50,201 nucleotides of DNA from a virus: IMG/VR virus record IMGVR_UViG_3300037153_000173, positions 1 through 50,201 of that record, one strand, 5' to 3'. Position 1 is the first letter of the stretch; every line of letters starts with the position of its first letter. Shown piece by piece: positions 4,410-30,125 of the stretch. Under the pieces are notes generated by a model, which saw only the letters and a program-made list of their open reading frames with translations, ran no database searches and was not told the origin of the DNA. A program made the position numbers and the translations under genes.

Positions 4410-4883
4410 TCAGTCGGATCGAGGAGCCCCAGGCCAGGACGCCCGGGGATGGTTCTCCAACACCTCAACCCTCCACCCGGTCGGTGACCTCGTGAACACC
4501 CTCCTCCCCCAATGCTCCTCCGCCTCGTACACAGGCCACAACTTGGTCGCGACAACCTCGCGGAACCGGCCGCCAAGCACAATCGCCACATGACTCCGCC
4601 CTCCCACACCCAACGGAGCAGTCGGCAAGTCAACAGCCGGAACGGGCACGAGATGGACCCAACTTGATGACCACCCTTCCTCCGCTAACCCCACCCAACT
4701 CCTGAGCCACTCGGTGGTTCCCATCGCACGAGTCCGCTGGAGCCGCTTGTACCCCAACCACGCCCAGAATCCCAACTCGGCGTTGACCAGCGAATTGTCA
4801 ATTTCTAGAGTCACATGACTGATCAAAATCCCACCATTTCCCTCTCTACACACAATGCCACTTCTAAGCCACCTCTCTGCCAT
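4410..4883 (-). CDS. hypothetical protein, first gene after element A
   Basis: A 157-aa protein with no recognised domain. It has a hydrophobic-aromatic N-terminal half (AELGFWAWLGYKRLQR) and a Pro/Val-rich middle. The frame opens at ATG 4883 inside the repeated motif GAATGGCAGAGAGGTGGC of element A, so that start may be part of the regulatory sequence; a later GTG or TTG (around residues 19-25) is possible, and the first ~20 codons are AT-richer than the rest. It is the first gene of the terminase-lysis operon. Confidence 0.55.
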   Translation of the reverse strand: MAERWLRSGIVCREGNGGILISHVTLEIDNSLVNAELGFWAWLGYKRLQRTRAMGTTEWLRSWVGLAEEGWSSSWVHLVPVPAVDLPTAPLGVGGRSHVAIVLGGRFREVVATKLWPVYEAEEHWGRRVFTRSPTGWRVEVLENHPRASWPGAPRSD

Positions 4884-5010
4884 TCTAACGGCAATTCACA
4901 CCGCATCCATATAAGCGGACAGGTACCCCCTGACGGGTTTTGTTAGCGTCAAAATGCCCTGCTATTTGCCAGGTAATTTTCACACCAAAATCAAATGTCT
5001 GAAACATTAC
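4862..5010 (-). promoter_or_regulatory. element A, conserved AT-rich regulatory element
   Basis: Read on the minus strand, this holds a 91-base block (5010-4920), a 34-base variable spacer, and a 24-base block with GAATGGCAGAGAGGTGGC (4885-4862). An inverted copy with the same spacing is at 29976-30125; I count 77 of 91 matches without gaps in the long block. Conserved words are AATGTTTCAGACATT (a dyad), AAAATTACC, TTTTGACGCTAACAAAA (TTTTG/CAAAA dyad around a TTGACG) and AGGGGGTACCTG. The sequence is AT-rich against a GC-rich genome and sits just upstream of the terminase operon, so it is probably the late promoter or an operator/origin-type site. TTGACG is -35-like, but I see no normal -10 at 16-18 bases. 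Confidence 0.75.
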
Positions 5011-5060
5011 AGTGGTTTTGATTCAGACACACCGGAAACCATTCCCGGAAACCATTCCGG

Positions 5061-5750
5061 TTAGCCACCCGAACCCGCAGCCCGCCGACCAGAAGGAGCC
5101 CGTAAATCGGCCACCCAATCCCGGAACTCGGAGGCCAACTCCCACGCCTGAATTCGGGGGTCGCCCTCCACCACCCAAGCCTCCATCCCCGGTCCTCCGG
5201 CGTACGTTGTCAGCACGTCTCCGACATAGCCGCCGGAGCCGCCCATCCACCCCTCGTCCGCGTGAAGGATGCGAGCGACTCGCAGCGCCATATGACGCAC
5301 CGCGTCTGCTCGATGGTCACCCTTGCCGAGAGCCCGCCCCTTGCGTTTCGCGTGCGCCACCCTCCACAGCCCCCACTCCTTCAACCGCGCATCGGTCGCG
5401 TACTTCTTGGCGTCAGCCGGAGTCTGCTCGACGACAGTCACACCAAGCGCATACCGACTCTCAGGCGATGAACGACCCACACAGTCTAAACGACCATCCA
5501 GCCCCGCGGACCGCGGCACGAGCAGACACCTGAGCCCCGCCGCGACCTCGACGCCCGTCAGATCCACGTTCACCTGTCGCAGGGCAAAGGACTCAATCAC
5601 CAACCAAATCCTGAACCCCTCCTCAACGCCATACGCCCGGCCCACCCGCTCGCCGCCCAATCGCTTCTCCAACGTCGTGTCCGCCCAGAACAACCCCCTT
5701 GCCACGCCGGTCGCCCGTCCAGGGTCGATTGCCATCACAGCGAATCTCAC
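5061..5750 (-). CDS. RuvC-like Holliday junction resolvase
   Basis: A 229-aa protein with the RNase H-fold resolvase pattern. The N-terminus MAIDPGRATG gives D9, LVIESF gives E53, and KGDHRADAVRHM gives H146 and D149, the expected two-metal active site for cutting branched DNA before packaging. In between lies the QTPADAKKYATDARL segment typical of RuvC relatives. The GTG start at 5750 overlaps the upstream stop (GTGA) after a GGGAGGG site. It is the last gene before element A, closing the replication module. The C-terminal ~60 residues are Gly/Pro-rich and not obviously part of the fold. Confidence 0.8.
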   Translation of the reverse strand: MRFAVMAIDPGRATGVARGLFWADTTLEKRLGGERVGRAYGVEEGFRIWLVIESFALRQVNVDLTGVEVAAGLRCLLVPRSAGLDGRLDCVGRSSPESRYALGVTVVEQTPADAKKYATDARLKEWGLWRVAHAKRKGRALGKGDHRADAVRHMALRVARILHADEGWMGGSGGYVGDVLTTYAGGPGMEAWVVEGDPRIQAWELASEFRDWVADLRAPSGRRAAGSGG

Positions 5751-5980
5751 GAGCCCTCCCGCTTGATCAACTGAGGCTCAATGAGCTGATACAAGAAGTC
5801 AGTGACCTCGTACGAGGCAGCCAGCCGTCGCGAGTCACAACGGACCTTGTGGACGATGACCGGCTCGTTGGGCTGCTCTCCGCCGGTAAACAACGCGATG
5901 CCCTCGTCCACACAGATAGGCTTCAGACACGTATCGCAGAGCAGGATCAGTTCACCCGCCTTGTTAGTGCTGATTCGCAA
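5747..5980 (-). CDS. small protein with CDTC motif
   Basis: A 77-aa protein with CDTCLKPIC near residues 15-23 and a later Cys, suggesting a partial zinc knuckle. The predicted start is TTG at 5980, preceded by AAGGGAGA; no ATG or GTG is available upstream in frame. Its stop overlaps the start of the RuvC-like gene (GTGA). It follows a strong terminator, so it probably begins a two-gene unit with the resolvase. Function unknown. Confidence 0.6.
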   Translation of the reverse strand: MRISTNKAGELILLCDTCLKPICVDEGIALFTGGEQPNEPVIVHKVRCDSRRLAASYEVTDFLYQLIEPQLIKREGS

Positions 5981-6039
5981 GTGTCCCAGTCTCCCTTCTC
6001 AATCGTTTACAACATCCGCTAGCACCGGTGGGCCTGTCC

Positions 6040-6079
6040 GGTGTCGTGTCCCAGGGTCCCGTCTAGGGACCCGGACACC
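6040..6079 (-). terminator. nested hairpin after primase-helicase gene
   Basis: The seven-base stem GGGTCCC/GGGACCC with loop GTCTA is nested in an outer stem GGTGTC/GACACC. It lies 50-90 bases past the stop of the primase-helicase gene on the minus strand. There is no U-tract, as is common for GC-rich actinobacterial hairpin terminators. The 148-base gap 5981-6128 contains nothing else I can identify apart from a weaker TGACCC/GGGTCA pair next to the stop. Confidence 0.6.
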
Positions 6080-6128
6080 ACCACTGCCCCACAAGGTGTC
6101 CCAACCAGTGACCCACCCGCACACTGGG

Positions 6129-7742
6129 TCACCGCCGCCGGTACATGATCGACCGGTTTGGACCATCCCACGAGATCACTCGCTCATCATCGAGCAGGAC
6201 CCGGAGAGCCCGCTTCACCCGTGTTTCCTTCCCGCCCAGGTTCCGGATGATCGAACTCTGACTCATCTCCCCGCTCAACGATCCATAGACCTCCTCGATG
6301 AACAGCGCGTCCCGCTGCTCCGCCGCCTCTGCTCGACCAGCTTCTCGCTTCGACAGCTTCTCCTTGGCGAACTGTTCAGGCAGGTATTCATCACCCTTCA
6401 TCCCGCGGGTAGGATCAAAGACCATCCCAGGTCCTACCTGAACCCGATCCATTCGCATCGCCTTGAGATGGCCGTGACGGTTCTTTACGTCATGGAACAT
6501 CCCAACCTCCGTCGAGCCCATCTGTTCCATCTTGATGATCGCTTCGCACCAGTCGATCAGGTGCCCAGTCCCTCGCGGCTGACCCATCGCGTTGGTGTGC
6601 TGTAGAACGATCACCGCGATGTCGAGCGTGATCGCCAGAGCCCGACATGCACGAGCTAGCATGGCCGTATCTTCCACGCCGTCCCGATTCTTGATACTGT
6701 ACAGCCCGGCGGAGTCAATGATGACCACCCTCGCCTCTCGCTGTAGGACACGCAAGGCGAGCCGGGCGAGTCCCGCCGGAGAGCCAACATCCCAAGTTGT
6801 CTGTGTGTAGTAGCCGGGCTCTGCCCCGTTCAGATCGCCCCGGCGGGAACGCAGAGCGGCATTCACATTCCTCAGCTGACGAGTCCCCTCGCCCTCTAAC
6901 ACGATCACCGTTCCAGACATCACCCGGTAACCATTCCATTCCATTCCACGTTTCACGGCGTCTGCTACATCGGATGCCATGATGGTCTTACCCGTCCCAC
7001 GATCCGCGTAGACCACCGTGTATCCGCCAAACGGGATCCAATCCTCAACCAGCCAGCGCGGAGGGGGCTGATTCAAGATGTCCTCGTCCGTCAGATACTC
7101 GTCCCTGGGCTCTCCACCTGCGAACATCTCCAACACCTGCTCGATCCGGTCCCGGTGCTCACCCGCCTCCTCAAGCCAGAGATCAACCGCTTCCCGCTCC
7201 GCGTAGCTATCCGTGGCCGCCTCCGCGACTGTGGGCGGGTCCTCCTTGATCAGCTGCTCGACTGATAAGCCATTAGTCAGATGGTCAGAGAAGTCTTTCC
7301 CACGAGCCGCCCTCCAACACTCGACCGTGGCTCCAACGGCATCGAGAGCATCCATAGCCCATCGAGCCCGCCGCGCCCCGTCATCGTCCCGGTCCCAGAT
7401 CAGCATCACGTCAGCGTACTTGAGCGGCCGGGCGAGTCCCGCTGGCCATTTCCCGTTCTGTGGTGCTGTCGTGGCAACCCCTGCCCCGCTTTTGACGAAC
7501 TTGTCCGCATCCTTCTCGCCCTCGACCAGCGTCACCGTGAGCCCGGACTTGACCGCCGCTCGGACCTCCGGGAGCCGGTACAGGACATCAGGCGCATTCC
7601 CGTATCCATCCTGCCAACCGCTCTCTGTGAGACACTCCCAAGCGAACCCCTTGGGGTCAAACCTGCTCTTGCGGCGAACGGGCTCCCCGCTCGCGTCGAT
7701 GTACGTGTAGATGGCGATTACCCGCCCGCTAGCCTTCGCCAT
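6129..7742 (-). CDS. TOPRIM primase / RecA-like helicase
   Basis: A 537-aa replicative protein combining a primase TOPRIM core and a RecA-fold helicase. TOPRIM: VTLVEGEKDADK (E74) and MLIWDRDDDG (117-122). Helicase: Walker A ADRGTGKT (246-253), Walker B-like VVIIDSAG, sensor-type VIVLQHTN and a C-terminal winged-helix-like end. I use ATG 7742, directly after the repeated motif TTGGCAGAGAAC; the open frame extends ten codons up through that motif to a GTG. A zinc-binding N-terminal primase domain is absent. It lies downstream of thyX and is isolated by hairpins on both sides, so it probably has its own promoter or control site. Confidence 0.8.
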   Translation of the reverse strand: MAKASGRVIAIYTYIDASGEPVRRKSRFDPKGFAWECLTESGWQDGYGNAPDVLYRLPEVRAAVKSGLTVTLVEGEKDADKFVKSGAGVATTAPQNGKWPAGLARPLKYADVMLIWDRDDDGARRARWAMDALDAVGATVECWRAARGKDFSDHLTNGLSVEQLIKEDPPTVAEAATDSYAEREAVDLWLEEAGEHRDRIEQVLEMFAGGEPRDEYLTDEDILNQPPPRWLVEDWIPFGGYTVVYADRGTGKTIMASDVADAVKRGMEWNGYRVMSGTVIVLEGEGTRQLRNVNAALRSRRGDLNGAEPGYYTQTTWDVGSPAGLARLALRVLQREARVVIIDSAGLYSIKNRDGVEDTAMLARACRALAITLDIAVIVLQHTNAMGQPRGTGHLIDWCEAIIKMEQMGSTEVGMFHDVKNRHGHLKAMRMDRVQVGPGMVFDPTRGMKGDEYLPEQFAKEKLSKREAGRAEAAEQRDALFIEEVYGSLSGEMSQSSIIRNLGGKETRVKRALRVLLDDERVISWDGPNRSIMYRRR

Positions 7743-7763
7743 GTTCTCTGCCAATCTCTGGTC
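7740..7763 (-). promoter_or_regulatory. start-associated repeat before primase-helicase
   Basis: The minus strand reads GACCAGAGATTGGCAGAGAAC then ATG of the primase-helicase gene. The core CAGAGATTGGCAGAGAACATG is identical at 31375-31395 before the gpJ gene. Its fixed abutment to start codons, and the absence of another good ribosome site, suggest translation or transcription-start control. Confidence 0.65.
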
Positions 7764-7772
7764 GAGAACCAT

Positions 7773-7798
7773 CTACCCTGGACCGTACCCCAGGGTAG
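7773..7798 (-). terminator. hairpin after thyX
   Basis: A nine-base perfect stem CTACCCTGG/CCAGGGTAG around an eight-base loop, in the 147-base gap between thyX and the primase-helicase gene and just upstream of the start-associated repeat. It may end the thyX transcript. The rest of the gap shows no gene I trust. Confidence 0.55.
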
Positions 7799-7889
7799 TC
7801 CCAGAATTCATGCGAGAGTGGGGCTACGCATTGCCTGGCAAGCGTCCCTGCTCCGGCCGGATAGCCGAAACGGTGGCCCACGACTCTAC

Positions 7890-8768
7890 TCAGCGGACCC
7901 AACCAGCCGTCGGATCGGCCATCCATTCTCGGACCTCGATCTGGTCGAACCGCTCCTCATCGACCCGGCCGCGGATCGTACAGCCCCGGTCAAACTCCGC
8001 CGTGAATGGACACCGGCCCATTGCGAAGCAGACTGGCCGGAACAGCGGGCTCGCGGCGATGTATTCAAACTGCCACCCACTCCCCCAGCCATCTACATCC
8101 TGAGACTGACCGGGAATGTGTGGCGGCCGGTAGTCTGCGAGAGCCTTGATGATCTGGGCTCCGACTAGCCGCCACTCAAACTGCGCCTGTGTACAGAGCC
8201 GGTTGCCCAGGTGCTCGATCAGGTTCCGGAGGTTGGTCTTGTAGTTCAGCCGGGTCAAGGTGTCGTGAGGCAGGAGTCCTCTTGCCTCCTCCGCCGGGAC
8301 GCCGTTAGCGATCAGCCACTGATACGCCTGCCAGATCGCCTCGATCCCCTTGGACCAGACTTCCTGTGTCTGGCGATTCGCGCTAATGATCGGTCCGCCT
8401 CTCGCCGCGATCTGGTCCTTGACCGCGAAGCGCATCGACTCCTGAGCGTACACGGCCGTCCGCTGGCGAACCATCTGATGTGTGAACGCCCGGGTGACGT
8501 TCTCGACCATGAAGTGAAGGTCAACAGCCTCCAACGGAGCCTTGAGATGGGTTGCGTTAGCCTGTTCCCACGCCCACGTTCGGTCCTCGTCCGTTAGCTC
8601 GCTCAAACTGCGAATCACCCGTCCCTTGTACATGTACACGAATGCCGCTATGGCCCCTAGCGGGTCCGGCGTCGCGGAGAGCAGCGTCACCTGGGGGAAC
8701 CCCTGGCCCACCGCCGGTTCCGCCGGGTACATCGCCTTGTCCACGTATGTGCTGACTTTGTTGTCCAT
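7890..8768 (-). CDS. thyX: flavin-dependent thymidylate synthase ThyX
   Basis: A 292-aa enzyme that methylates dUMP to dTMP with FAD and methylenetetrahydrofolate. The ThyX signature is RQRTAVYAQESMRF (101-114), a variant of RHRxxSxxxxSxR with the first Ser replaced by Val-Tyr. It is followed by the conserved C-terminal YKTNLRNLIEHLGNRL and RLVGAQI segments. The N-terminal PLGAIAAFVYMY resembles family members. ATG 8768 has an AAGGGGA site. The upstream zinc/HTH frame runs 212 bases into this gene. Phage ThyX supplies dTMP for replication; with MazG- and Nmad1-like genes nearby it may also feed a modified-nucleotide pathway (inference). Confidence 0.9.
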   Translation of the reverse strand: MDNKVSTYVDKAMYPAEPAVGQGFPQVTLLSATPDPLGAIAAFVYMYKGRVIRSLSELTDEDRTWAWEQANATHLKAPLEAVDLHFMVENVTRAFTHQMVRQRTAVYAQESMRFAVKDQIAARGGPIISANRQTQEVWSKGIEAIWQAYQWLIANGVPAEEARGLLPHDTLTRLNYKTNLRNLIEHLGNRLCTQAQFEWRLVGAQIIKALADYRPPHIPGQSQDVDGWGSGWQFEYIAASPLFRPVCFAMGRCPFTAEFDRGCTIRGRVDEERFDQIEVREWMADPTAGWVR

Positions 8769-9237
8769 CTGTCCCCTTCATTCGTTCAAACCTCTCAGCG
8801 AGATGTCCCCTGACCTGTCTGATCGGATACAGCCGATCATTGATGACACGGTACCCGCGGTGGAGATCGATGATTGTCTGACGACTGAGACCAAGGTCCA
8901 GCTGTAGCTGCTCCAGCGTAGTTCCGGCCGCGACCCATCGCAGCAGCTTCTCGCGGACCGGCCAGGCGTCCACTCTCAACTGACTCCCAATCCGGTTGAG
9001 ATATGACTCCCGGTTGTACTGCTTGCGATCCTTGTTCGCGTACCACGCCCGGCGTCGAGCCCGCGCACAGGCGTAGCACTCCGGCCGGATGTAGTACACG
9101 TTCCGGCCGCGGTGGTAGATGTATGGGAACTCGTGAATGTGCTTCCAGCGGGTACAGCGTGAACAGTTCCGCCGCCCGCAGATCAACCGCGAGGAGGTAA
9201 CCAGTCCGTCTGCTCGCCTGTGTGCTCTCGCAGTCAT
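8557..9237 (-). CDS. zinc-binding helix-turn-helix protein
   Basis: A 226-aa reading frame. Residues ~15-70 carry CGRRNCSRCTRWKHI and RPECYACARARRR, two Cys pairs like an HNH or zinc-finger domain. Residues ~95-140 contain an HTH (TLEQLQLDLGLSRQTIIDLH). The last ~70 residues overlap thyX out of frame and are low-complexity, which suggests that the functional protein ends near the thyX start or that a frameshift has extended it. The start overlaps the polymerase stop (TAATG). Either a small DNA-binding regulator or a homing-type endonuclease relative; I favour the regulator. Confidence 0.6.
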   Translation of the reverse strand: MTARAHRRADGLVTSSRLICGRRNCSRCTRWKHIHEFPYIYHRGRNVYYIRPECYACARARRRAWYANKDRKQYNRESYLNRIGSQLRVDAWPVREKLLRWVAAGTTLEQLQLDLGLSRQTIIDLHRGYRVINDRLYPIRQVRGHLAERFERMKGTDGQQSQHIRGQGDVPGGTGGGPGVPPGDAALRDAGPARGHSGIRVHVQGTGDSQFERANGRGPNVGVGTG

Positions 9238-12200
9238 TACGGCGTCACAACCCAGAGTCTCTTGACGTTCAGCTTCCGGACCGCCGACCGCGCTGGCTTG
9301 GTCGCCTCGACTAACAACAAATCCGAACCGGTGTTGAACTCCATGATGTGATCCCTGTAGACCGGGAACCGCCAGCGGTCCACCGTGATGAGGAGTTGAT
9401 CGGTGTCGTCCTCGCCCGTCAGCAGCGCCCACTCCCGCAGGTGCGGATCCTTGAGCTTGGCCGGGTCCAGTTCAATCCCACGAGCCCGGTTCTGTTCAAA
9501 GATGTCTCTGATGTTGAGCTTGAGGAACGTCCCCAGCCACACGCAGCGGACCGCTTTGCCAACCAGAGACTCCGCCGCGAGGTCTGTAGCGGTGTGGGTG
9601 GGGACGGGTAGCCCCATCCCATCACTCCCGCTCTCAAGCCACTCCCGGCTCAGCGCAATGTTCCGGTCGAGCAGGAAGGCGTTGAACGGGTCCTCGTCCG
9701 CGAGCCACGCCTTGATCTTCTCCGCTGTCTTGGGTCCAAACCCTTTCAGCTCAACGATCTGGTCCCAGGAGGTTGGATGGCGACTGCGAGCCCACTCCGT
9801 CACGACCGCCGCCGTCTTGGGTCCGATCCCGTTGATGGCTCGGAACCCGGCTCTGATCCCGCCGTGCCTTCCCACCGGCGTCCAGCCTTCCTCCGACTTA
9901 GCCAGAGACGGACGCCGGACCCGGATTCCATGCTTGTTCGCGTCCCGGAGTAGGTTGCGAGTGCGCTCCGGGTCGCTCGACGCCTCCGTCAGGCTAGCGG
10001 CATAGAACACATTGGTGTGGTGCTGCTTGAACCACTGTGTGTAGTAGCTGATCAGCGCGTACGCGGCGCAGTGAGCAGCGTTGAAGGCGTACGCTCCGCT
10101 GGTAACCATGTTCCCCCAAATTCGGTCCGCAAGCTCGACGGGCATTACCCGCTCCGCCCCGGCCAGGAACTCCTCGCGCCTGGCTTGGAACTTCTGCTCG
10201 CCCTTCTTGAGCGCGATGATCTTGCGAATCTCTGCGACTCCGGCGGGCGGGAACCCTCCTATCTCGCGAGCCACCTGAAGTATCTGTTCCTGGTACACCA
10301 TCTGGTATTGAGTCGGCTTGGTGATGGCGTCATACGCCGGATGGACCCGCTCCGGCTCGCGGAGCCCCGCCTTGATCTCTGCGTACTCGCGGGCGGCTCC
10401 GTTGTGGAGCGGTCCCGGGCGGCAGAGGGCGATACAGTCCATCAACTCGCTGAACCGCTCCGGCTGAATCCCGGCCGTGACGTACCGGGTAGCTCGACCC
10501 TCAAACTGGAAGATGCCCGTCAGGTCGCCCGCCCTGAACGCCTCATACACGACAGGGTCATCGAGGTCCAGCGCGTACAACTCCGCCGCCGTCAGCCCGA
10601 TCCTCTTGCAGGCGTCCCAGAGCATCGACATTGTGTTGAGACCCAGGAAGTCCATCTTGACGAGCCCCTGTCGCTCCGCGTCCGGCTTGTCGAGGGCGAC
10701 CACCTGGAGGATGTTCCCGGAGCCCTTGGGGACCTCCCGCTCAGCCACGGTCGTGACGCTGGTGATCGGCTCGTTGGACAGCACGAGCCCCGCGGCGTGA
10801 ACACCGAACCCCTTGACATTCCCCTCTAGCCAAGCTCCCTTGGCCAGGTCCGGGTTCCGGTCCCAGACTGCTCGCGCCTGAGGGAACTGCTCGATGGTGT
10901 CCTCAATTGTCGAGCTAGCGCGGAGGTCGCCGCTCGACCGCTCGATGAGGAACTTCTTCAACTCCTCGACCTCCCACTTGGGGATGCGGAACACCCGGGC
11001 GATGTCGTCCAGCGAGTTGCGCCCCTTGAACTGGATGTACGTTCCGATGTTGTTGACGCAGCCGGGTCCCATCAGGTTCTCATAGAACCGGCGGAGGATC
11101 GGCCGCGCCTCACTAGGGAAGTCCAGGTCAATGTCTGGCAGGTCCTCCCTCGTCACATCGATGAACCTCTCAAAGCGGAGCAGACCTTCAAACTCGCGTC
11201 GCAATGGGTCAACCTCCGTGATCTCCAGCAACCACGCCGCTATGCTGGCCGCCGCCGACCCACGAGCCGGGCCAACTGGGATGCCAAGACTCTTGATGTG
11301 ACGTACGCCCGCAGCGACCAGTAGAAAATAGTCCACAAAATCTTTGCCTTCAATGAGCGCCATCTCATGCCTGAGCTGGGCGCTGTATCGCTCCTTCTCC
11401 TCGTCCGGGAGCCGGTGGAGCCCGCGAGCCCGCCAACCCGCCTTGAGGAGGGCACGCCAATACCGGACCGTGTCGCCCTCGCCCGCCGGTAGCGGGTACC
11501 GGACCATGGGGAGCCGCGGGAGCCGGGCTGAACACTCCTGGGCAATCTCCTCTGTTGTGACAATCGCCTCAACTGCTTCCTCCTTACTCAAGCCAGTAGC
11601 TCTCAGCTTCCGGTACACCGTCGCATCGTTTGGTGGTGGGCAGAGTGGGACGTTGTATCCCCACTCACGAGCCTGCTCCTCTAGTGTTCGCTTCTCACCT
11701 GGCCGGAGGTTGTGGAGTATCTGTTGAACCTCTGCTTCCTCCAGCATCGTGTAGTGGCAGTCGAGCGTAGCCGCGAGCCGCGAGCCGATAGCCCGGGCGA
11801 GCCGCCCCGCGAGAGCGTTGAACCGCCGTGTGGCTTCCAACTCCGGGAACGCCTGGACCTCGATCAAGTAGTTGGAGCCAAACGTCTCCCGGAACAGCTG
11901 CGCTATCCGCAGCCCTCTGGCGTAGCTCGCCCGCTCCTGGGGGATACCCTTCCCACCGACCGTCGCACATGAGAGGAGGCTGCCCTGACAGCCGGACAAC
12001 ACAAGGAGTCCCGCTCGCCGCAGGCATAGCTGCTCCCACGTGACCGTTGGCTCGTAATAGAAGTGGTGCCAAGCTCCTGTCACCAAAGCGAGCAGGTTGG
12101 CATAGCCTTCCGCGTCCTTGGCGATCAACGTCAAGTGATGTTTGCGCTGAGTCTCCGTTCCGTCCCGCCGCCAGAACCGGCCGACAGGCATATAGACCTC

Positions 12201-13338: not shown

Positions 13339-13340
13339 GA

Positions 13341-15407: not shown

Positions 15408-15687
15408 CGTCGCTCTCCATGTAGCCCAGGAACCGGTGTAGCTCGTTGCGGGCTACCCGGATCGCCCTCGCGTACCGTTTGGGCTCGACCTCCGCCTCAC
15501 CACTCCGGTACTCCGTCACCAGGTTGTGGAAACGGGGACCAGCGCTAAACACCCACTCAACCTCCTCCTTGTTTGTGGCTGGGTCCTCGATGACCTCCAT
15601 GGTCATGTGCCGCATCCCCTTCATCATCAGGAACGCGGCCAGCGGGAGGTCGCCTGTTCTGAATACTTCCTCAGTGTGTTCCGTCAT
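15400..15687 (-). CDS. hypothetical protein before FAD enzyme
   Basis: A 95-aa protein with a Met-rich stretch (AFLMMKGMRHMTMEV) followed by VEWVFSAGPRFHNLV and a basic helical end. The N-terminal region resembles short DUF5659-type phage proteins, but I cannot confirm this. ATG 15687 follows GGGAGAATGAG. It opens the enzyme block downstream of a strong hairpin. Confidence 0.6.
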   Translation of the reverse strand: MTEHTEEVFRTGDLPLAAFLMMKGMRHMTMEVIEDPATNKEEVEWVFSAGPRFHNLVTEYRSGEAEVEPKRYARAIRVARNELHRFLGYMESDDG

Positions 15688-15704
15688 CTCATTCTCCCGG
15701 AGGA

Positions 15705-15739
15705 GCCCCGGGACTCTCCGCCAAGTAGAGCCCCGGGGC
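15705..15739 (-). terminator. hairpin after SSB-like gene
   Basis: A long interrupted stem GCCCCGGG-a-CTCT / AGAG-c-CCCGGGGC around a nine-base loop, in the 62-base gap between the SSB-like gene and the enzyme block. It probably ends or attenuates the recombination transcript before the metabolic genes. Confidence 0.6.
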
Positions 15740-15749
15740 AGCTTGTGGA

Positions 15750-16547: not shown

Positions 16548-16550
16548 TGC

Positions 16551-19100: not shown

Positions 19101-19114
19101 GCTCCGGGAATTTC

Positions 19115-19507: not shown

Positions 19508-19519
19508 GGGTGCGACCTC

Positions 19520-19873
19520 CTAGATTGCGCCGTAGCCAGCGACTAGGCGAAGTTCCTGGCGAGTCCGCCGGTAGTGGTCGATGCCGTGAGTGCTCATGTG
19601 CTCCGCGGCTCCCTGCTCGATCAGCCGGTTCAGAGCCCGGGTGGTAGCGGGCTGCGAGAGCTTTCCAGCACGGTCCCGGACCGCCGTCTTGGCGGCCCAG
19701 TCGCTGGTCAGGACCTCGCGGACCCGCTCGGTGTTCTGCTCCGCTGCCGTCCGGCGGGTGAGGGGTGGCGGTGGCTCCCAAATGAGGAGTTGGTCGTTGA
19801 TGAGCGAGAGGTCTGCCATGAGTCCTGCTCGCCGCTCCTTCAGTGCCTTGATGATCTTCTGCTCCAGCGTCAT
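19520..19873 (-). CDS. winged-helix-like protein
   Basis: A 117-aa protein with a helical N-terminus (MTLEQKIIKALKERRAG) and a C-terminal segment TAVRDRAGKLSQPATTRALNRLIEQGAAEH that looks like a wing-HTH recognition region. Likely a DNA-binding regulator or adaptor. The start overlaps the upstream membrane micro-protein (TAATG) after an AGGAACG site. Confidence 0.55.
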   Translation of the reverse strand: MTLEQKIIKALKERRAGLMADLSLINDQLLIWEPPPPLTRRTAAEQNTERVREVLTSDWAAKTAVRDRAGKLSQPATTRALNRLIEQGAAEHMSTHGIDHYRRTRQELRLVAGYGAI

Positions 19874-21173: not shown

Positions 21174-21342
21174 CAACAACCTCCCACTCCACCGTCTCAT
21201 AGATGCCGCCGTTCTCGCCATCCAGCTGTCCCGGGTCCGCCTGCTCCAGGCAGTCCCTGATCTGCTCGCCCATGTCGTCCCGGGAGGCGAACTTACCCTC
21301 ACTCCGCTCGACCTGAACGGTCACTGTGTATATAAATCTCAT
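21166..21342 (-). CDS. 58-aa hypothetical protein
   Basis: A short protein starting MRFIYTVTVQVERSEG and ending in VEWEVVDV, with a two-strand/one-helix pattern. The start ATG at 21342 directly follows the repeated motif (GGCAGAGAACAACAGAGAG...GCTTAGA), which marks it as the first gene of its operon after a strong terminator. Confidence 0.65.
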   Translation of the reverse strand: MRFIYTVTVQVERSEGKFASRDDMGEQIRDCLEQADPGQLDGENGGIYETVEWEVVDV

Positions 21343-21373
21343 TCTAAGCCATCTCTCTGTTGTTCTCTGCCAA
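21341..21373 (-). promoter_or_regulatory. start-associated repeat before 58-aa gene
   Basis: The minus strand reads TTGGCAGAGAAC, then AACAGAGAG, then ATGGCTTAGAATG, ending at the start codon. The first part equals the motif at 7.74 and 31.38 kb; the second part equals the end of elements A and B (GTGGCTTAGAA, GTGGCTCTAATG). This copy therefore links the two motif forms. Confidence 0.6.
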
Positions 21374-21405
21374 CGCGGCAGTCTGGTCTGTATCCTAATG
21401 TGGCT

Positions 21406-21445
21406 GGGTCCCGTCTCGCCCAGAGACGGGCGGAGAGCGGGACCC
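21406..21445 (-). terminator. large double hairpin
   Basis: An outer eight-base stem GGGTCCCG/CGGGACCC encloses an inner stem CCCGTCTC/GAGACGGG. It lies between the 28-aa membrane peptide and the 58-aa gene, in a 139-base gap, and should end the SNF2 operon. The same GGGTCCC/GGGACCC sequence is used at 6054-6072. Confidence 0.7.
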
Positions 21446-21481
21446 TAGCGCGTCCGGCGATTAGACAGCGGGCTCCCTCCT

Positions 21482-22066: not shown

Positions 22067-22081
22067 CGCGCCCTGCGGCTT

Positions 22082-22153: not shown

Positions 22154-22172
22154 GTTTCCTCTATCCATCTTC

Positions 22173-23996: not shown

Positions 23997-23998
23997 GA

Positions 23999-24280: not shown

Positions 24281-24297
24281 CAGTCTCCTTCTGGTTC

Positions 24298-24612
24298 TCA
24301 AGTCTGGGGTTCGCGCCCAGCCGCGTCCTTCGCACTACGTGCGAGTATACCCGATCCGTGAACAAAGGTTACGCTCCGGCGTCCGACAGCCAGTAGCTCC
24401 CGGACCCGCTCGATGGACGCCACGACCTCGCACTCAAACTGGTCGTCCACAAACGCCCGGACCAGAATCACGCCCTTGCCCCCGGGTGAGTACTGGATGA
24501 GCCGGTGAGGGTGGATGTTGAACTCCCTCACGTTCTCGCCGCGCTGGCGTAGCTCGACGCCAAGAGCTTGCGCATCCCGGTCGAGCCGGGCGATGGTCTC
24601 ATTCAGAGACAC
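24298..24612 (-). CDS. hypothetical protein
   Basis: A 104-aa protein with IARLDRDAQALGVELRQRGEN and a beta-rich centre (RLIQYSPGGKGVILVRAFVD). GTG start 24612, after GGTGG, overlaps the winged-helix gene by 14 bases. Its 3' third overlaps the next promoter, so coding sequence and promoter share the same bases. No family recognised. Confidence 0.6.
   Translation of the reverse strand: MSLNETIARLDRDAQALGVELRQRGENVREFNIHPHRLIQYSPGGKGVILVRAFVDDQFECEVVASIERVRELLAVGRRSVTFVHGSGILARSAKDAAGREPQT
24344..24372 (-). promoter_or_regulatory. early promoter before SNF2 operon
   Basis: The minus strand has GTAACC (24372-24367), exactly 17 bases, then TATACT (24349-24344). The same GCGTAACC-N17-GGGTATACTC arrangement is at 26827-26855. 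A small hairpin, GCACGTAGTGC, begins just past the -10 and would lie at the 5' end of the RNA. Confidence 0.65.
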
Positions 24613-24784
24613 GTCGAACCACCACCCATCCTAGCTCAGATCGCTTGATCCTTCCCTCCTGGCGGAGAGCAGACATCAGTTGCCAGACTGCTCCCGGACT
24701 GAACCCTGTCCGCTCACTCAGCTGGAGCATGGTCACGCCGGGCTCCCGCTCGATGGCGTTGAGTAGCAGTGCCTTGGGGGTCAT
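24599..24784 (-). CDS. winged-helix DNA-binding protein
   Basis: A 61-aa protein, MTPKALLLNAIEREPGVTML... with QLSERTGFSPGAVWQLMSAL as the HTH and a terminal wing (GRIKRSELGWVVV). It is minimal-size for a MarR/winged-helix regulator. ATG overlaps the upstream stop (ATGA). Confidence 0.7.
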   Translation of the reverse strand: MTPKALLLNAIEREPGVTMLQLSERTGFSPGAVWQLMSALRQEGRIKRSELGWVVVRRVSE

Positions 24785-25032: not shown

Positions 25033-25047
25033 GATCGTCACCGTTAC

Positions 25048-25065
25048 CCTGGGGTCTAGCCCAGG
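25048..25065 (-). terminator. hairpin after DUF2786-like gene
   Basis: A six-base stem CCTGGG/CCCAGG with loop GTCTAG, immediately past the TAG of the 345-aa gene. It is short and without a T-tract, so termination may be partial. Confidence 0.45.
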
Positions 25066-25066
25066 C

Positions 25067-26104
25067 CTATCGGTCTAGCTCCTTCCGCTGGCCGATACGC
25101 TGTCCAGGCGAGTTGTGGATCTGAGCCTCGCGCCCGGCGTCCCGGCCGTGGTTGGCTGCCTCATACGAGAACGCCCGCTTGTCGGTCAGTGACTTGCCCT
25201 TCCGCGCCTTGCCCGTCTGCTCCGGAGCGGGCCACATCTCCTCGTACAGGGTGACCGCGTTCTGGTAGATGTCGCGGAGGACGATGGCGGTGGAGCCGGT
25301 GTCCCCGCTCCCCTCGTCCTGGCGCATCGCCCGGAGCCGCCGATCAATCTCATCCACGAACCCCTCCGCGTAGCTCCGCTGGTACACCGCGGGCGCAACG
25401 TAGTTCCGCGGGAGCCCGTTGGCCTTCACGTACGCCCGGTTCAGGTTCGCCAGGTTGTTCTTGACGCCGGTCCAGTACTCCTCCGGGAGCTTGTCGAACG
25501 GCGTGTCGAGCGTAATGGCTTCCGCTTCGCCAGTGGCGTAGTTCCAGATCATGGTTCCGCCCAGCCGTCCGCGGAGCAGCTTGACCTGACCTGCATCCCA
25601 CATCCGGCGGGTGATCTCCTTCCAGCCCATCCCGGCCATCCGCATCGTGTACACGTTCTTCCCGGGCTCCGCCTGCTCGTCAAGCTCCGGCGTCAGCCGC
25701 TTGCTCATCTGGAGCATCAAGCTCGTGAACAGCATGTCGAACCAGTCGAGGTCGGAGGAGAGCCCGATCACGGGCATCCGCCGGTAGTTCCCGTCAGAGC
25801 CGTGGCCGCGGAGAGCGACCTTGCAGCGGCAGTGACGAGCTACGTCATTGAACATCCACCAGAGCTTGCTCCCCTGGGAGTGTGCGTACCACCACTCAAA
25901 GTTGAAGTACCGGACCTCCGGCTTGGGCCGCTCCGTCGAGCCCTTCTGGGCCGCTTCCACCTGCCACTGCTCGATCGCGTACGCCGCCATCAACTGATCC
26001 GCCTTGGCGCGGAACGAATCCGCCTCGCCCTCAAACTCCGTGGAGTCCGCCTTGGCGATCAACGCGCGGACCTTCTCCAGCATCTGCTCAGTCTTGGTGC
26101 TCAC
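25067..26104 (-). CDS. DUF2786-domain protein
   Basis: A 345-aa protein. The N-terminal KVRALIAKADSTEFEGEADSF and RAKADQLMAAYAI segment is the DUF2786 pattern, seen in phage and actinobacterial proteins. The rest (SDLDWFDMLFTSLMLQM, AYVKANGLPRNYV, a basic C-terminus) is typical of its longer members. GTG 26104 follows GGAGATTCAG; the open frame extends further up but overlaps the upstream gene. Function unknown. Confidence 0.7.
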   Translation of the reverse strand: MSTKTEQMLEKVRALIAKADSTEFEGEADSFRAKADQLMAAYAIEQWQVEAAQKGSTERPKPEVRYFNFEWWYAHSQGSKLWWMFNDVARHCRCKVALRGHGSDGNYRRMPVIGLSSDLDWFDMLFTSLMLQMSKRLTPELDEQAEPGKNVYTMRMAGMGWKEITRRMWDAGQVKLLRGRLGGTMIWNYATGEAEAITLDTPFDKLPEEYWTGVKNNLANLNRAYVKANGLPRNYVAPAVYQRSYAEGFVDEIDRRLRAMRQDEGSGDTGSTAIVLRDIYQNAVTLYEEMWPAPEQTGKARKGKSLTDKRAFSYEAANHGRDAGREAQIHNSPGQRIGQRKELDR

Positions 26105-26135
26105 GGTTCTGAATCTCCGTTCAGTCGGTAGTTGA

Positions 26136-26765
26136 TTAGTGGAAACGCCGGGCGCAGACGGGACCGATCCCGCGAGCCCTGCTTTCATCGTTCGTCAGGC
26201 CGCGGCCACAGATACCACACCGGCCATACTCGTGGCCGAACAGCGTCATCGCCGCCTCCGGGTCCGCCGCGATCTTGTCCAGCACCTTCAGCTGGAGCGG
26301 GAACCCGATCTTGTACTTGTCGTCGGAGACGTACATCCGGATGTTCCAGCCGCCGCGGTCCCCGATCCACAGCTGGAAGAACGTCGTGTCATTGGTGAAA
26401 TCGTCGCCCGGCGTCTCGACGCCGTACGAGCCCGCGTACACCTCACGGCCGTCCGCGAGCAGGAGGACGCCGGTGCGCTTGCGCCCCTTGTCCGTCTCCT
26501 CCTCCCGATACTCGACCCGCGGCCGGTCAATCGAGCCGGAGCCCGCCTTGCGGGGAAGGCTCTTGAGGAAGTCGATGACCTCGCTCGCCTTGCCGATGGT
26601 GAACTCGCCGCGGTCCATCAGTTCCGCGATCCGGGCGTCAAACGCCTCCCGGCGGGCGGGCGTCATTTCCTTCTGCTCCAGGAGGCTGGTGATGTAGCCC
26701 AGCTGGGGGTCGGTAGCTCCGCCGTGGTCGGTGAATTCGGCGGGGACTGCGCTTCGCTTGCTCAT
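26136..26765 (-). CDS. DUF6011-like protein with C-terminal zinc knuckle
   Basis: A 209-aa protein. The C-terminus RCGICGRGLTNDESRARGIGPVC is the small Cys-containing module (CxxCgr.L.d..S...GiGp.C) of DUF6011-type proteins. The middle has beta-rich VYAGSYGVETPGDD and WIGDRGGWNIRMYV. ATG 26765 has AAGGAGA. It is the first gene after the promoter at 26827-26855. Role unknown, probably nucleic-acid binding. Confidence 0.7.
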   Translation of the reverse strand: MSKRSAVPAEFTDHGGATDPQLGYITSLLEQKEMTPARREAFDARIAELMDRGEFTIGKASEVIDFLKSLPRKAGSGSIDRPRVEYREEETDKGRKRTGVLLLADGREVYAGSYGVETPGDDFTNDTTFFQLWIGDRGGWNIRMYVSDDKYKIGFPLQLKVLDKIAADPEAAMTLFGHEYGRCGICGRGLTNDESRARGIGPVCARRFH

Positions 26766-26784
26766 GTGAATCTCCTTCTGGTAT

Positions 26785-26808
26785 TCCCGGGTTCCGGCCG
26801 GGTCCGGT
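26785..26808 (-). repeat. 24-bp leader repeat, copy 1
   Basis: The 24 bases are identical to 29163-29186. Both copies lie between an early promoter and the ribosome site of the first gene, so they are transcribed as 5' leader. The sequence is almost pure G/C and contains CCGGCCGG, so it could fold or bind a protein. Confidence 0.7.
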
Positions 26809-26826
26809 TACTTCCAACTCCGTTGG

Positions 26827-26855
26827 AGTATACCCGACGGCTCACGCGAGGTTAC
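26827..26855 (-). promoter_or_regulatory. early promoter before DUF6011-like gene
   Basis: Minus strand GTAACC (26855-26850), 17 bases, TATACT (26832-26827), followed by a CCAACGGAGTTGG hairpin at the expected RNA start. The same architecture occurs at 24344-24372. Confidence 0.65.
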
Positions 26856-26868
26856 GCCGCCGGGTATC

Positions 26869-27120
26869 TCACAGGGCGATCAAGTCATCGACCGAACAGG
26901 TGCGGATGCCGCCGTGTCGAGCGATGAACTGGACCAACGTATGCTTGCGGGACCCCTGACCGTCCGCGGTGGGACCGGCGGGAAGCCATTTCACGAGCTT
27001 GACAACCAAGTGGTCCTGCTCGATGGTGGTGGCTCCGTCTCCGCCGTCCCGCCGCGGGAGGCGAGTGATCTGGTGTACTCGCCTCCCGGTCAGGAGTTCC
27101 GCCCGCTGTTCAAACGTCAG
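26869..27120 (-). CDS. hypothetical protein, possible CTG start
   Basis: An 83-aa protein (LTFEQRAELLTGRRV... DHLVVKLVKWLP ... CSVDDLIAL) with coherent amphipathic structure. There is no ATG, GTG or TTG near its 5' end; the only start that gives the usual four-base overlap with the upstream stop is CTG at 27120 (CTGA). If that is wrong, it is either read by frameshift from the upstream gene or begins within it. No family recognised. Confidence 0.5.
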   Translation of the reverse strand: MTFEQRAELLTGRRVHQITRLPRRDGGDGATTIEQDHLVVKLVKWLPAGPTADGQGSRKHTLVQFIARHGGIRTCSVDDLIAL

Positions 27121-28013
27121 CCCTTCTGCGAAGGGTTTGCCTTGGCACCACGCTTGACGGTGGTCTTGGCACCCTTCTTCGCGGTGGTCTTGGGCTGTGC
27201 GCCCTCCTCCTTGTCCGCCGCGTCCTCCTTGGCGACTGCCTTCCGTCCGCCGGTACCGGCCGGAGCGGAGTCCCCCACCACTTCCCGTAGCTCGCTCTCC
27301 GGCTTGCCCGTCATCAGGGCGAGCATGTACCACGCCGTACCCTCGTTGCGCTCCTTGACGAGCCGGTTCTTGAGCTTGGCGCCGGTGAGTCCGCTGATGT
27401 CCTCGTATTCAAGCTCCTCGCCCTTGGAGTTGAATCCGGCTCGCGCCAGCGCCTCGCGGAGAGGCACGTCACTGCTGACGCTGTACTTCTGCTTGAGGCT
27501 CTGCATCGTCTCGCCTGCCTGACGAGCCTCCCTGATCTCGTTGACAAGCCCGTCCCAGTCCTCCGCGGTCCGGCGTCCGTTGGTCGCCGCCGCCTTGGTG
27601 GTTGTCTTGCTCTTGGTGCTGCTCTTGGTGCTGCCCTTGCTGCGTGTGACCTTGGCCATGGTGGCCTCCTTCTTGTTGGTGTTGTTCGTGTGTCCCTGCT
27701 CGCGGAGCAGACGGGCGTACAGCCTCGCCTTCTCCGCCGTGTTGGTGCTTGAACGGGTTCCCGCGTAGTTGGGACCTCCGTTCAATCCACCGCCCTCGCT
27801 GAGCCCGATGGTGATAGCATCGAGCCACTCAGCCAGGTCCTCCAGCGCCGGAGCAGTCAGATAGACCGTCCCGCCGCCGGAGCCGACCCGGTGTAGCTCG
27901 CCCGCGAGGAGCGGGCTGTACCCGGAGTCGGTGTTGGGGTTGCTGATATCGCTCCCGCTCGCCTCAACCGCGATGAAGCGGGTGATCTTGAAAGGCTTGG
28001 TCGGCTCGATCAT
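27117..28013 (-). CDS. Lys/Ser-rich protein with internal start
   Basis: A 298-aa frame. Residues 1-~118 form a globular domain (FKITRFIAVEASGSDIS, YLTAPALEDLAEWLDAI). From ~119 comes a Lys/Ser/Thr-rich tail with MAKVTRSKGSTKSSTKSKTT, then a helical domain and a second Lys/Ala tail. A strong ribosome site (AAGGAGG, 5 bases before ATG 27659) lies inside, so a 180-aa shorter form is probably also made. The basic, histone-like tails suggest DNA binding. ATG 28013 overlaps the upstream stop (ATGA). Confidence 0.65.
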   Translation of the reverse strand: MIEPTKPFKITRFIAVEASGSDISNPNTDSGYSPLLAGELHRVGSGGGTVYLTAPALEDLAEWLDAITIGLSEGGGLNGGPNYAGTRSSTNTAEKARLYARLLREQGHTNNTNKKEATMAKVTRSKGSTKSSTKSKTTTKAAATNGRRTAEDWDGLVNEIREARQAGETMQSLKQKYSVSSDVPLREALARAGFNSKGEELEYEDISGLTGAKLKNRLVKERNEGTAWYMLALMTGKPESELREVVGDSAPAGTGGRKAVAKEDAADKEEGAQPKTTAKKGAKTTVKRGAKANPSQKG

Positions 28014-28246
28014 CGGTCCTCCCAGCTCAAGCCGTGAGGGTTGATGATCTGCTCCGCGGAGCACATGAAGCAGAAACGGAGCCCGTTGTCATGCTCTCCG
28101 TCCGGACCCGTAGCGTGCGGCTGCCCTCTGCGAGCCCGGCCACACCCGTCACACCGGTATGTGACCGTCGAGTGATGGCCGCGATGATCCTGGTCTAGGG
28201 TACAGGTCCCGCCGCCGCGGACCGGAGACTGGCAGAGATTGCTCAT
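28010..28246 (-). CDS. zinc-ribbon protein
   Basis: A 78-aa protein with CQSPVRGGGTC, then CDGCGRARRG and a late CFMC: enough cysteines for two zinc sites. The first part resembles the short C-x-x-P...GGxC knuckles of phage early proteins. ATGA overlaps at both ends. Function unknown. Confidence 0.65.
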   Translation of the reverse strand: MSNLCQSPVRGGGTCTLDQDHRGHHSTVTYRCDGCGRARRGQPHATGPDGEHDNGLRFCFMCSAEQIINPHGLSWEDR

Positions 28247-28599
28247 CGCTGTAGCTCCATCCGGATGGCTTCCGCCGCCGCTAGCTCGCGGGTGGGATAG
28301 GGGTCATCCTCCCCAACCCAATCCCCGGTCCAGGTGTCGACCACAAACCAGCGGTCCTCCCCGAACTCGTCCCTGGTGTGCTCCATCCCGTAACGCGGGT
28401 CCGGCTGCTCGTCAGGCTCCGGCTCGTACACCTCAGGGTCGCCCCAGCCCTCAAAGCGGTCCAGGTCCCCGTGAGTGGCGTCGTCTGCTCGCTCCTGCTC
28501 CGGGCTGTAGTAGTGGTCGGAGTTCGGGCAGATGTGGTAGCATCCACTACCCATCGGCGTCATCCCGCAGCTAGGGCACGTTTGCTCGGTGTTCATCAT
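28243..28599 (-). CDS. zinc-ribbon protein with acidic middle
   Basis: A 118-aa protein with CPSCGMTPMGSGCYHIC (residues ~8-24, ribbon-like) then a very acidic middle (EPEPDEQPD) and a C-terminal FVVDTWTGDWVGE segment. ATG 28599/28596 follows AGGAG. Likely a small regulatory protein of the early operon. Confidence 0.65.
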   Translation of the reverse strand: MMNTEQTCPSCGMTPMGSGCYHICPNSDHYYSPEQERADDATHGDLDRFEGWGDPEVYEPEPDEQPDPRYGMEHTRDEFGEDRWFVVDTWTGDWVGEDDPYPTRELAAAEAIRMELQR

Positions 28600-28623
28600 C
28601 GTTCTCCTGTCCCCAAGGGGCGG

Positions 28624-29136
28624 CTACGCCGCCGCCCGCTTGGTCGAGGACTTCCGGGACCGCTTGGCCGACTCGCGCTGCGCCTCGCGGTGGCGAAGCG
28701 TCTTGGCGAGATACGCCGTGGCCTTGATTCCGAGAGCCGCGCCGATGGCCTTGAAGGTCGAGCCGTCCGCCTTCATCTGCTCCGCCTTGGTCAGCTGCTC
28801 CTCCGTGTAGCGGGGACCCGTCGCGCCGGTCCCGCCGGTCCGCCCGGGAGTGACCGTCTCGCCCTTGGGGAACGCCTTGTCGAAGTCCTTGATGGCGTCC
28901 GTGCGCTTCTCCCCGTTCTGGACATCGTAGTAGCTCTGCCAGATCAGGGTCGGCTCACCGTTGACGTGGTCGCCCACGATCAGGCCGCGGCGCTCAAGGC
29001 GGCGGAGGAGGCTCGTGGCCGTCTTGACGTCCTGCTTGATCCCCTTCGCGACATCGGCCGCGTCCACGGCCCAGTTGTCAACAACGTACAGGTAGGACTT
29101 GCGGAGGGCGGGGCGGAGGTTAGTGGTGGTGCTCAT
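28624..29136 (-). CDS. DNA-binding protein, first early gene
   Basis: A 170-aa protein with a winged-helix-like N-terminus (AADVAKGIKQDVKTATSLLR, then a GLIVGDHVNGE wing) and a second HTH-like segment (KADGSTFKAIGAALGIKATAY) followed by a basic tail. ATG 29136 follows AAAGGA. It is the first gene after the promoter at 29199-29227, so it is a good candidate for an early regulator of host or phage transcription. Confidence 0.65.
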   Translation of the reverse strand: MSTTTNLRPALRKSYLYVVDNWAVDAADVAKGIKQDVKTATSLLRRLERRGLIVGDHVNGEPTLIWQSYYDVQNGEKRTDAIKDFDKAFPKGETVTPGRTGGTGATGPRYTEEQLTKAEQMKADGSTFKAIGAALGIKATAYLAKTLRHREAQRESAKRSRKSSTKRAAA

Positions 29137-29162
29137 CAGAGTGTTTCCTTTCAGTTCTGCTC

Positions 29163-29186
29163 TCCCGGGTTCCGGCCGGGTCCGGT
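29163..29186 (-). repeat. 24-bp leader repeat, copy 2
   Basis: Identical to 26785-26808. It lies between the -10 at 29199 and the ribosome site of the first early gene. See that entry for interpretation. Confidence 0.7.
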
Positions 29187-29198
29187 CCAACGCCGGGA

Positions 29199-29227
29199 AC
29201 TATAGCGGCCAGTCAAGCGCCGCACAA
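29199..29227 (-). promoter_or_regulatory. leading early promoter
   Basis: Minus strand TTGTGC (29227-29222), 17-base spacer, TATAGT (29204-29199): the best sigma70-like promoter I found. It precedes the first early gene, just downstream of the last tail gene. Confidence 0.7.
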
Positions 29228-29300
29228 CCCGGTCCTGCTTCGCCAGTTATCGGCGGAGGTCAGGTCGAGCTTTAGCCCGGTCCCCTCGCCCCGCCGCCGC

Positions 29301-29312
29301 CCGCGTACGCGG
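29301..29312 (-). terminator. palindrome after last tail gene
   Basis: The 12-base perfect palindrome CCGCGTACGCGG lies in a GC-rich stretch just past the gpI stop, before the early promoter. It may help end the late transcript. The rest of the 182-base gap 29137-29318 holds the promoter and leader repeat. Confidence 0.35.
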
Positions 29313-29318
29313 ACGGGA

Positions 29319-29948
29319 TCAGCCGGGCGTGTTCTCGCGAAGGTCCGCGTACGTGCTGTACGCCGCCGACTGAGCCGCGTACGTCCCGCCCTGATCCGTC
29401 ATGGCCTGGTAGTCCCAACCATCAGCGGTCCGGTAGGTCAGGACGAGTCCGCCTGGCTTGGCGGCCGTCGCCGCCGCGAGCGTGAGCGCCGGGTCCGGTG
29501 TCTCCGCGGCTAGCGTCACGACCTCCAGCCGGTACGCGGAGCCCTCTCGCTCACGGAAGTACACGGTGGCCGGAGTCGGAGGGTGAGCAGATACGAGTGT
29601 GGATCGGATCGCTGACATCATCGCCGCGACCGTCCCCGCTTTGTGACCTGCCGAGTTGACGATGAGCTCACGTGCATCCGCGTCCGACATCCCCGCCGGG
29701 ATGCGAACTCCGACCGCTTGAGCCAGCCAAGGCAGTGCCCACGATGGGCACACGTTGACGTCAAACAGGGGACCCCAAGGTGGGTACGGCTCCGGCGGGT
29801 CGATGAGTTCAGCGACCTGTTCGTACGGCCGGGCGAGTGCCTCGCAGAGGATGCCGTGAACCCAGCCGTACTGCTCGTCATCGGGCTGGAGCGGCTGCGT
29901 GCGCTCCTGGAGCCGGAGAGCCCATCGAGACAACACCGGTTCAGCCAC
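29319..29948 (-). CDS. baseplate protein gpI-like (P2 I family)
   Basis: A 209-aa tail protein with WALPWLAQAVGVRIPAGMSD near residues 68-88 and a long middle containing AGHKAGTVAAMMSAI, the pattern of P2 gpI-type baseplate proteins that link wedge to fibres. GTG 29948 follows a GGAGG. It is separated from the gpJ gene by the inverted element B, unusual because J and I normally abut. Confidence 0.75.
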   Translation of the reverse strand: MAEPVLSRWALRLQERTQPLQPDDEQYGWVHGILCEALARPYEQVAELIDPPEPYPPWGPLFDVNVCPSWALPWLAQAVGVRIPAGMSDADARELIVNSAGHKAGTVAAMMSAIRSTLVSAHPPTPATVYFREREGSAYRLEVVTLAAETPDPALTLAAATAAKPGGLVLTYRTADGWDYQAMTDQGGTYAAQSAAYSTYADLRENTPG

Positions 29949-29975
29949 GATCCGCCTCCAGTTCGCAAAATAGGT

Positions 29976-30125
29976 GTAATGTTTCAGACATTTGATTTTG
30001 TGGCAAAAATTACCCCCAAATTACCAGGGGCTTTTGACGCTAACAAAATCCGTGAGGGGGTACCTGCATAACGGGCCAGCTGAATGGTCCAAACACGGGA
30101 GAATGGCAGAGAAGTGGCTCTAATG
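29976..30125 (+). promoter_or_regulatory. element B, inverted copy of element A
   Basis: Read on the plus strand: a 91-base block (29976-30066), 34 bases, then GAATGGCAGAGAAGTGGCTC (30101-30120), matching element A on the minus strand with the same spacing. Shared words include the AATGTTTCAGACATT dyad, TTTTGACGCTAACAAAA and AGGGGGTACCTG. It points toward the gpJ gene in antisense. Directly after it the plus strand has a possible 11-codon ORF (30123-30158, ATGAACAATCTG... TAA) that overlaps the gpJ stop. The gap 29949-30144 has no other content. Confidence 0.75.

Follow-up and report, generated by a model that had tools for sequence, protein, structure and literature searches.

Genomic context of two inverted AT-rich elements

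The window, by which we mean the whole 50,201-nt stretch of viral DNA that was analyzed, probably corresponds to a complete genome assembled as a circle or with terminal repeats, because the two ends of the contig overlap by 173 bases (positions 1–173 vs. 50029–50201, 172/173 identical). The minus strand carries every one of the 70 called genes, among the products of which are a tail sheath, baseplate proteins, a major head protein, a portal, TerL, and an endolysin, as well as a DnaE-type polymerase, ThyX, a primase/helicase, a Sak4-like annealing protein, and an exonuclease, a gene content that identifies the source as a contractile-tailed phage (myovirus). No integrase, recombinase, or immunity repressor was recognized among the genes scanned, a set covering part of the small genes. 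Nine-base periodic repeats at 1306–1541 and 33738–34018 resemble, on the minus strand, collagen-like Gly-X-Y stretches in two genes.

Two AT-rich elements of opposite orientation, A (minus strand, about 5020–4862) and B (plus strand, about 29966–30131), provide the two most AT-rich 80-bp windows of this genome (64% vs. a mean of 36.5%). A separates the replication genes from the late block, and the late genes (terminase, endolysin, portal, capsid, and tail) are found 3′ of it on the minus strand, around the circle. B is located between a baseplate-J-like gene (30145–31377) and a Tail_P2_I gene (29319–29948), that is to say within the late block, one tail gene (Tail_P2_I) ahead of the early block and of its first early-type promoter. 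The picture given in the first-pass annotation, in which the two copies bracket the early half, therefore needs adjusting at B, which is not situated at the early/late border.

Two complete IMG/VR genomes, G001 and G002, match the gene order of the window from one end of their sequence to the other, with full collinearity. Both of them, as well as a fragment of a third phage (L030), carry B at the equivalent position and with unchanged orientation. The two ends of G001 share an exact 123-base repeat, and this genome is opened near A. No similar DNA was found among 50,697 phage records, in which the nearest proteins are ~42–47% identical. Profile searches with the terminase and baseplate-J proteins recovered the same two genomes only, plus a distant contig at 24% identity, and the terminase had no match in bacterial genomes.

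Composition of elements A and B

The predicted parts of the two elements are the following:

4920–5010, minus: AT-rich block of 91 bp in element A, common with B (77/91 identity to B; incomplete at the syntenic locus in both relatives covering A)
4991–5011, minus: O1 palindrome AATGT-TTCAG-ACATT in A (the same 21-mer in A and in B of four phages)
4938–4954, minus: TTTTG-ACGCTAA-CAAAA dyad of A, containing TTGACGC (both relatives have TTGACGC at this element as well)
4871–4926, minus: core module of A in degenerate form (CTG retained but no CAG, arm TTAGAATGGCAGAGA at the same distance; 5 mismatches to the core)
29976–30066, plus: AT-rich block of 91 bp in element B (same site in G001, G002, and L030)
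29975–29995, plus: O1 palindrome AATGT-TTCAG-ACATT in B (invariant in four phages)
30032–30048, plus: TTTTG-ACGCTAA-CAAAA dyad in B (window, G001, and G002; L030 lacks the left half)
30060–30115, plus: core module of B, CCTG-N10-CAG-N16-CGGGAGAATGGCAGAGA (exact pattern match at 30064, 0 expected; jackknife 38.6 bits vs. a null maximum of 9.3)
30114–30131, plus: tail GTGGCTCTAATGAACAAT (common to B and to A of the relatives)
30018–30046, minus: possible sense promoter in B, TTGTTA-N17-TAATTT, toward the Tail_P2_I gene (spacing constant in four phages, by inspection)

In a repeat search, A and B formed the best inverted pair of the genome (101 nt, 82%), and the alignment of A (5010–4920, minus) with B (29976–30066, plus) exactly reproduced the previously reported count of 77 identical bases out of 91. 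A 17-mer within this block occurs at these two sites only (0.01 expected). The 34-nt spacer that follows had been described as invariant; its length is indeed the same in each copy, but its sequence has diverged to the level of chance (9/34 identical), and it is not mere filler either, as the spacer of B holds half of a conserved dyad. Directly after it, the announced motif, GAATGGCAGAGA-GTGGCT, was found at both A and B. Each element can be described as having two parts: an AT-rich one upstream, which bears an invariant palindrome (AATGT-N5-ACATT), and a core downstream. The 21-mer of the O1 palindrome has no further site in the three complete genomes at up to 5 mismatches. Across the block, A of the window matches its own B at 78/92 positions and B of G002 at 74/92, with some variants in common with the former and some with the latter; from this comparison, A does not appear to be an obvious fresh copy of its own B.

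A rigid core module dispersed in the genome

The core is a rigid module, CCTG-N10-CAG-N16-CCAGAGAnTGGCAGAGA, to which the 34-base "spacer" itself belongs, and the aligned cores yield the consensus CCTGG..CCAG..CCAGAGAnTGGCAGAGA. The pattern searched, CCTG-N10-CAG-N16-CCRGAGAnTGGCAGAGA, was taken from an alignment of intergenic sites reached via the arm motif. It has five exact matches in the window (7745 −, 28190 +, 30064 +, which is B, 31380 −, and 42790 −), where none is expected. The predicted core loci outside A and B are:

7745–7793, minus: core module immediately 5′ of the primase/helicase gene (with orthologs in G001 and G002)
21388–21436, plus: degenerate core module with 4 mismatches (intact at the corresponding place of G001, 15659–15707, no mismatch)
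28190–28238, plus: core module situated between minus-strand genes and reversed relative to them (with orthologs in G001 and G002)
31380–31428, minus: core module immediately 5′ of the baseplate-J-like gene (with orthologs in G001, G002, and L030)
42790–42838, minus: two-armed core module, 5′ of the neck (tail completion) gene (with orthologs in G001 and G002)

As the core sites had been picked by eye before model building, we trust leave-one-locus-out scores over full-model scores; these range from 14 to 48 bits across the core loci, against maxima of ~9–14 bits in a null of 0.3 Mb of Markov-random sequence scanned on both strands. A of the window reaches a weak 3.8 bits in this jackknife, and we thus regard its core as a degenerate copy, recognized by its place and by its better relatives, since the A loci of the two related genomes are good cores (32 and 14 bits).

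When the pattern was searched over all viral contigs, it retrieved the known relatives and L047, a 13-kb contig with distantly related structural genes (portal 41% identical). There, the core is a full two-armed dyad, situated in frame within a variable portal linker (5538–5620). The AT-richest window of this contig (6440–6720), between the portal and the next gene, contains repeats (TTGGTAGACTTGGTT twice) and an antisense TTAGAATGGCAGAGA, and may be a B-like region at another place, with a centre that fits poorly. The single match obtained in bacterial and archaeal genomes, in an archaeal MAG, shares no common context and was judged to be due to chance. Other queries were discarded: the 17-mer TTTTGACGCTAACAAAA gave 14 stretches in viral contigs, of which only those of the two relatives have the same context and the other twelve look like chance, and the arm pattern alone returned mostly chance matches.

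Three core loci (primase, baseplate-J, and neck) end directly before start codons in sense orientation; the core of A lies farther upstream of a start, and the cores of B and of the 28.2-kb locus are reversed, against all genes. Left arms are present at the baseplate-J, neck, G001 15659, and L047 loci, and the right-hand spacing is constant. The CAG boxes are spaced 20 and 10 bases apart, which would place them on one face of the helix. Two of the loci have further features beside them: a strong GC-rich hairpin (21340–21480) adjoins the decayed module, and a palindrome, GTCACA-CCGGTA-TGTGAC, mostly kept in the relatives, lies beside the reversed core (28100–28240).

Conservation in related phages

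Between phages, B is identical at 76–80 of 92 positions in the block and at 57–60 of 66 downstream (83–91%), whereas the fourfold sites of the flanking genes J and I are 64–66% identical in the same phage pairs. Because its identity exceeds that of the fourfold sites of its neighbor genes, B is under purifying selection. Along with the recurrence of the same spacing in the five exact window copies and in the relatives, this agrees with the proposal made from the window alone that selection acts on geometry. The complete 91+34+24 arrangement expected in related phages is present at B in three of them; at A, all that remains of it is the downstream module and, upstream, a stretch of ~20 bp.

Indeed, the A locus of G001 and G002 is a shorter region devoid of the O1 palindrome, of the TAACAAAA-to-GGTACC stretch, and of most of the 91-base block, in which one finds AATAGCAGGG-N4/5-TTGACGC, a good core, and the tail GGCTCTAATGAACAAT. 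The long inverted repeat is thus a feature of the window genome, whereas the A and B loci look control-like in all three genomes. B is the most AT-rich window in the three complete genomes and in L030, and A is among the next.

Predicted early-type promoters and candidate regulators

A family of predicted early-type promoters is found on the minus strand, composed of GTAACC-N17-TATACT, then the palindrome CTCGCACGTAGTGCGAAG, and, at most copies, the GC-rich trailer CCGGACCCGGCCGGAACCCGGG. The spacing equals 17 in the eight copies that fit the pattern (window, two relatives, and L030). In the window, the corresponding features, along with a candidate regulator, are:

24344–24372, minus: predicted early-type promoter, then palindrome CTCGCACGTAGTGCGAAG (regular-expression match)
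26827–26855, minus: predicted early-type promoter, second copy (regular-expression match)
29199–29227, minus: predicted early-type promoter in diverged form, heading the early block (G002 has it intact, and G001 nearly so, with GTAACG as the −35-like hexamer)
24599–24784, minus: small winged-helix protein of 61 aa (HTH_24), candidate regulator (Pfam 40.6 bits, cut-off 21.9)

These promoters would delimit an early block extending from about 29.2 to 5.1 kb. A further possible regulator is a weakly MarR-like protein encoded at 19520–19873.

A and B as probable control regions

Taken together, we consider it probable that A and B, the direction of B being left aside, are cis-regulatory DNA combining a promoter with operator sites, because A is positioned where the replication genes give way to the late block; because B is kept in place and orientation in four phages and is under purifying selection; because the core has five exact window matches and high leave-one-out scores, and retrieves the relatives and L047; because three core loci end at start codons in sense; and because AT content peaks at the A and B loci in each of the three complete genomes. 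Among the options raised in the first-pass annotation, a promoter/operator role thereby remains the best reading, given a geometry under selection and a recurrent module. Most likely, a sequence-specific DNA-binding protein, of phage or host origin, reads the core and times gene expression, since copies of the core are dispersed along the genome, often immediately before start codons. A would be the control region of a late operon that starts there and spans the terminase, capsid, and tail genes, and the earlier suggestion of a late promoter at A fits the map. B would be a conserved copy between tail genes J and I.

Given that three modules end right before start codons, the order CTG-to-CAGAGA would be the direction of expression at these loci, and, if this rule is extended, A would drive the late block and B would read the baseplate-J gene in antisense. 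B may regulate gene I via a weak promoter in sense orientation, direct an RNA antisense to gene J, or possibly do both, bidirectionally. With regard to the former, the minus strand of B carries TTGTTA-N17-TA(A/T)TT(T/G) in four phages (TAATTT, TATTTT, TAATTT, and TATTTG), including L030, which lacks the plus-strand TTGACG; this lead, below scan threshold, would drive Tail_P2_I in sense, with O1 just downstream as operator. A consensus promoter scan gave nothing above threshold in B and nothing in A itself, and TTGACG, which is lost in L030, has no partner hexamer at a fixed 16–18 bp across copies. Other features of the map speak against a promoter/operator role: the cores of B and of the 28.2-kb locus are oriented against all genes, and the L047 core, inside the portal reading frame, is oddly placed for a promoter. 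A more ambitious scheme, which we consider improbable, is that B sends an antisense transcript back into the final part of the 25-kb late operon and answers to the regulator that also turns on A, so that one protein would both start this operon and set its far boundary on the circular map, the shared core being the site of a new class of phage regulator.

Several details of the elements were also considered and rejected. A short ORF arising from the motif (MAEKWL-stop) is not retained as a peptide, its start and length varying between phages, by inspection; a LexA-like reading of CTG-N10-CAG meets inner bases that are G+C-rich and variable; and GGGTAC, seen in several cores, has no −35 partner at a fixed distance as would a SigB/SigF-like −10.

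As an alternative to a protein-binding regulatory site, the core could be a mobile or selfish DNA of small size and palindromic form (MITE-like) that spread in these genomes, and of which A and B merely carry copies. The near-perfect dyad of the full core form, the in-frame copy within the variable portal linker of L047, and the 21.4-kb copy, intact in G001 and decayed in the window, are what such an element would predict; we nevertheless find it unlikely, as four loci share place, orientation, and spacing in three or four phages, three of these four kept loci lie right before start codons, and no recently spread identical copies are seen. That A and B give rise to a structured RNA (a leader, antitermination, or processing site) is very unlikely. 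Long arms can pair in some members, and we take GGCTCTAATGAACAAT to be faintly boxA-like, but this fit needs an insertion, and both B and the 28.2-kb copy are antisense. Moreover, CTG and CAG at the core centre are kept in 18–20 of 20 copies with the ten bases between them unpaired, folding the four B copies on either strand gave two compensatory pairs only, hence almost no covariation, and Rfam had no match within the window, all of which favors a protein-binding DNA site over an RNA structure.

Two further proposals of the first-pass annotation concerned replication and recombination. If B, and perhaps A, were a replication origin, the AT-rich part would melt while the palindrome and boxes bind an initiator, and both the AT-richness ranking of B and A and the presence of an invariant palindrome are in line with this. 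Yet the elements hold no iteron array, the skew at fourfold sites does not switch at A or B, the core also adjoins ordinary genes, and the palindrome is absent at A of both relatives covering A; paired origins have no positive evidence beyond AT-richness, and we deem an origin improbable. Inverted repeats identical at 77/91 bases could in principle let the 25-kb early segment flip by recombination, an idea that we abandon as extremely unlikely: neither complete relative departs from collinearity anywhere in the genome or has the long repeat at A, the early genes are on the same strand in all three genomes, and the genes scanned include no recognized recombinase.

Comparison with known phage systems

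The view that A and B are control regions invites comparison with known phage regulatory sites. P2-type late promoters depend on the activator Ogr, have no good −35 box, and carry a dyad TGT-N12-ACA near −55; the putative control region at A is similar in that a dyad would lie upstream of a possible late promoter without a good −35 box, but the dyad here is TGT-N5-ACA, and no Ogr-like protein was found. Stoperators are asymmetric 13-bp repressor-binding sites dispersed in intergenic gaps of actinobacteriophage. The core module resembles them as a short site dispersed in intergenic gaps and differs from them as a composite of ~50 bp in a phage in which neither an integrase nor an immunity repressor was recognized among the genes scanned.

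A closer parallel is offered by the SAS/ESAS of Cluster K mycobacteriophages, group-specific repeats found in larger intergenic gaps, many of them just before start codons and mostly in one orientation, and described alongside a mention of the stoperators of Cluster A mycobacteriophages (PMC3203893). The 13-bp SAS consensus is GGGATAGGAGCCC, SAS are restricted to the non-structural halves of the genomes, and the ESAS spacer varies (PMC3203893). Some of these repeats come with imperfect inverted repeats, they are conserved by gene, and they have been proposed to bind DNA-binding proteins, a function that is unproven (PMC3203893, PMC12699233). The core module likewise consists of phage-group-specific dispersed repeats, three of which (primase, baseplate-J, and neck) stand right before start codons, with A farther upstream and the B and 28.2-kb copies reversed. 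However, a comparison of the aligned cores shows their consensus to be unrelated to GGGATAGGAGCCC, the core spacing is rigid (N10, N16) where that of ESAS is variable, core copies are also found at structural genes, and two core sites here (A and B) bear an extra AT-rich block. We infer that the core module is of the same kind as SAS/ESAS without being a member, and that it would form a new sequence family, its presumed function being deduced from sequence. For an uncultured group of contractile-tailed phages, the resulting transcription map, with its early promoter set, late control region, and dispersed module of fixed spacing, can be tested, and if the module does bind a phage protein, SAS/ESAS-like systems would have arisen more than once and could also control structural genes.
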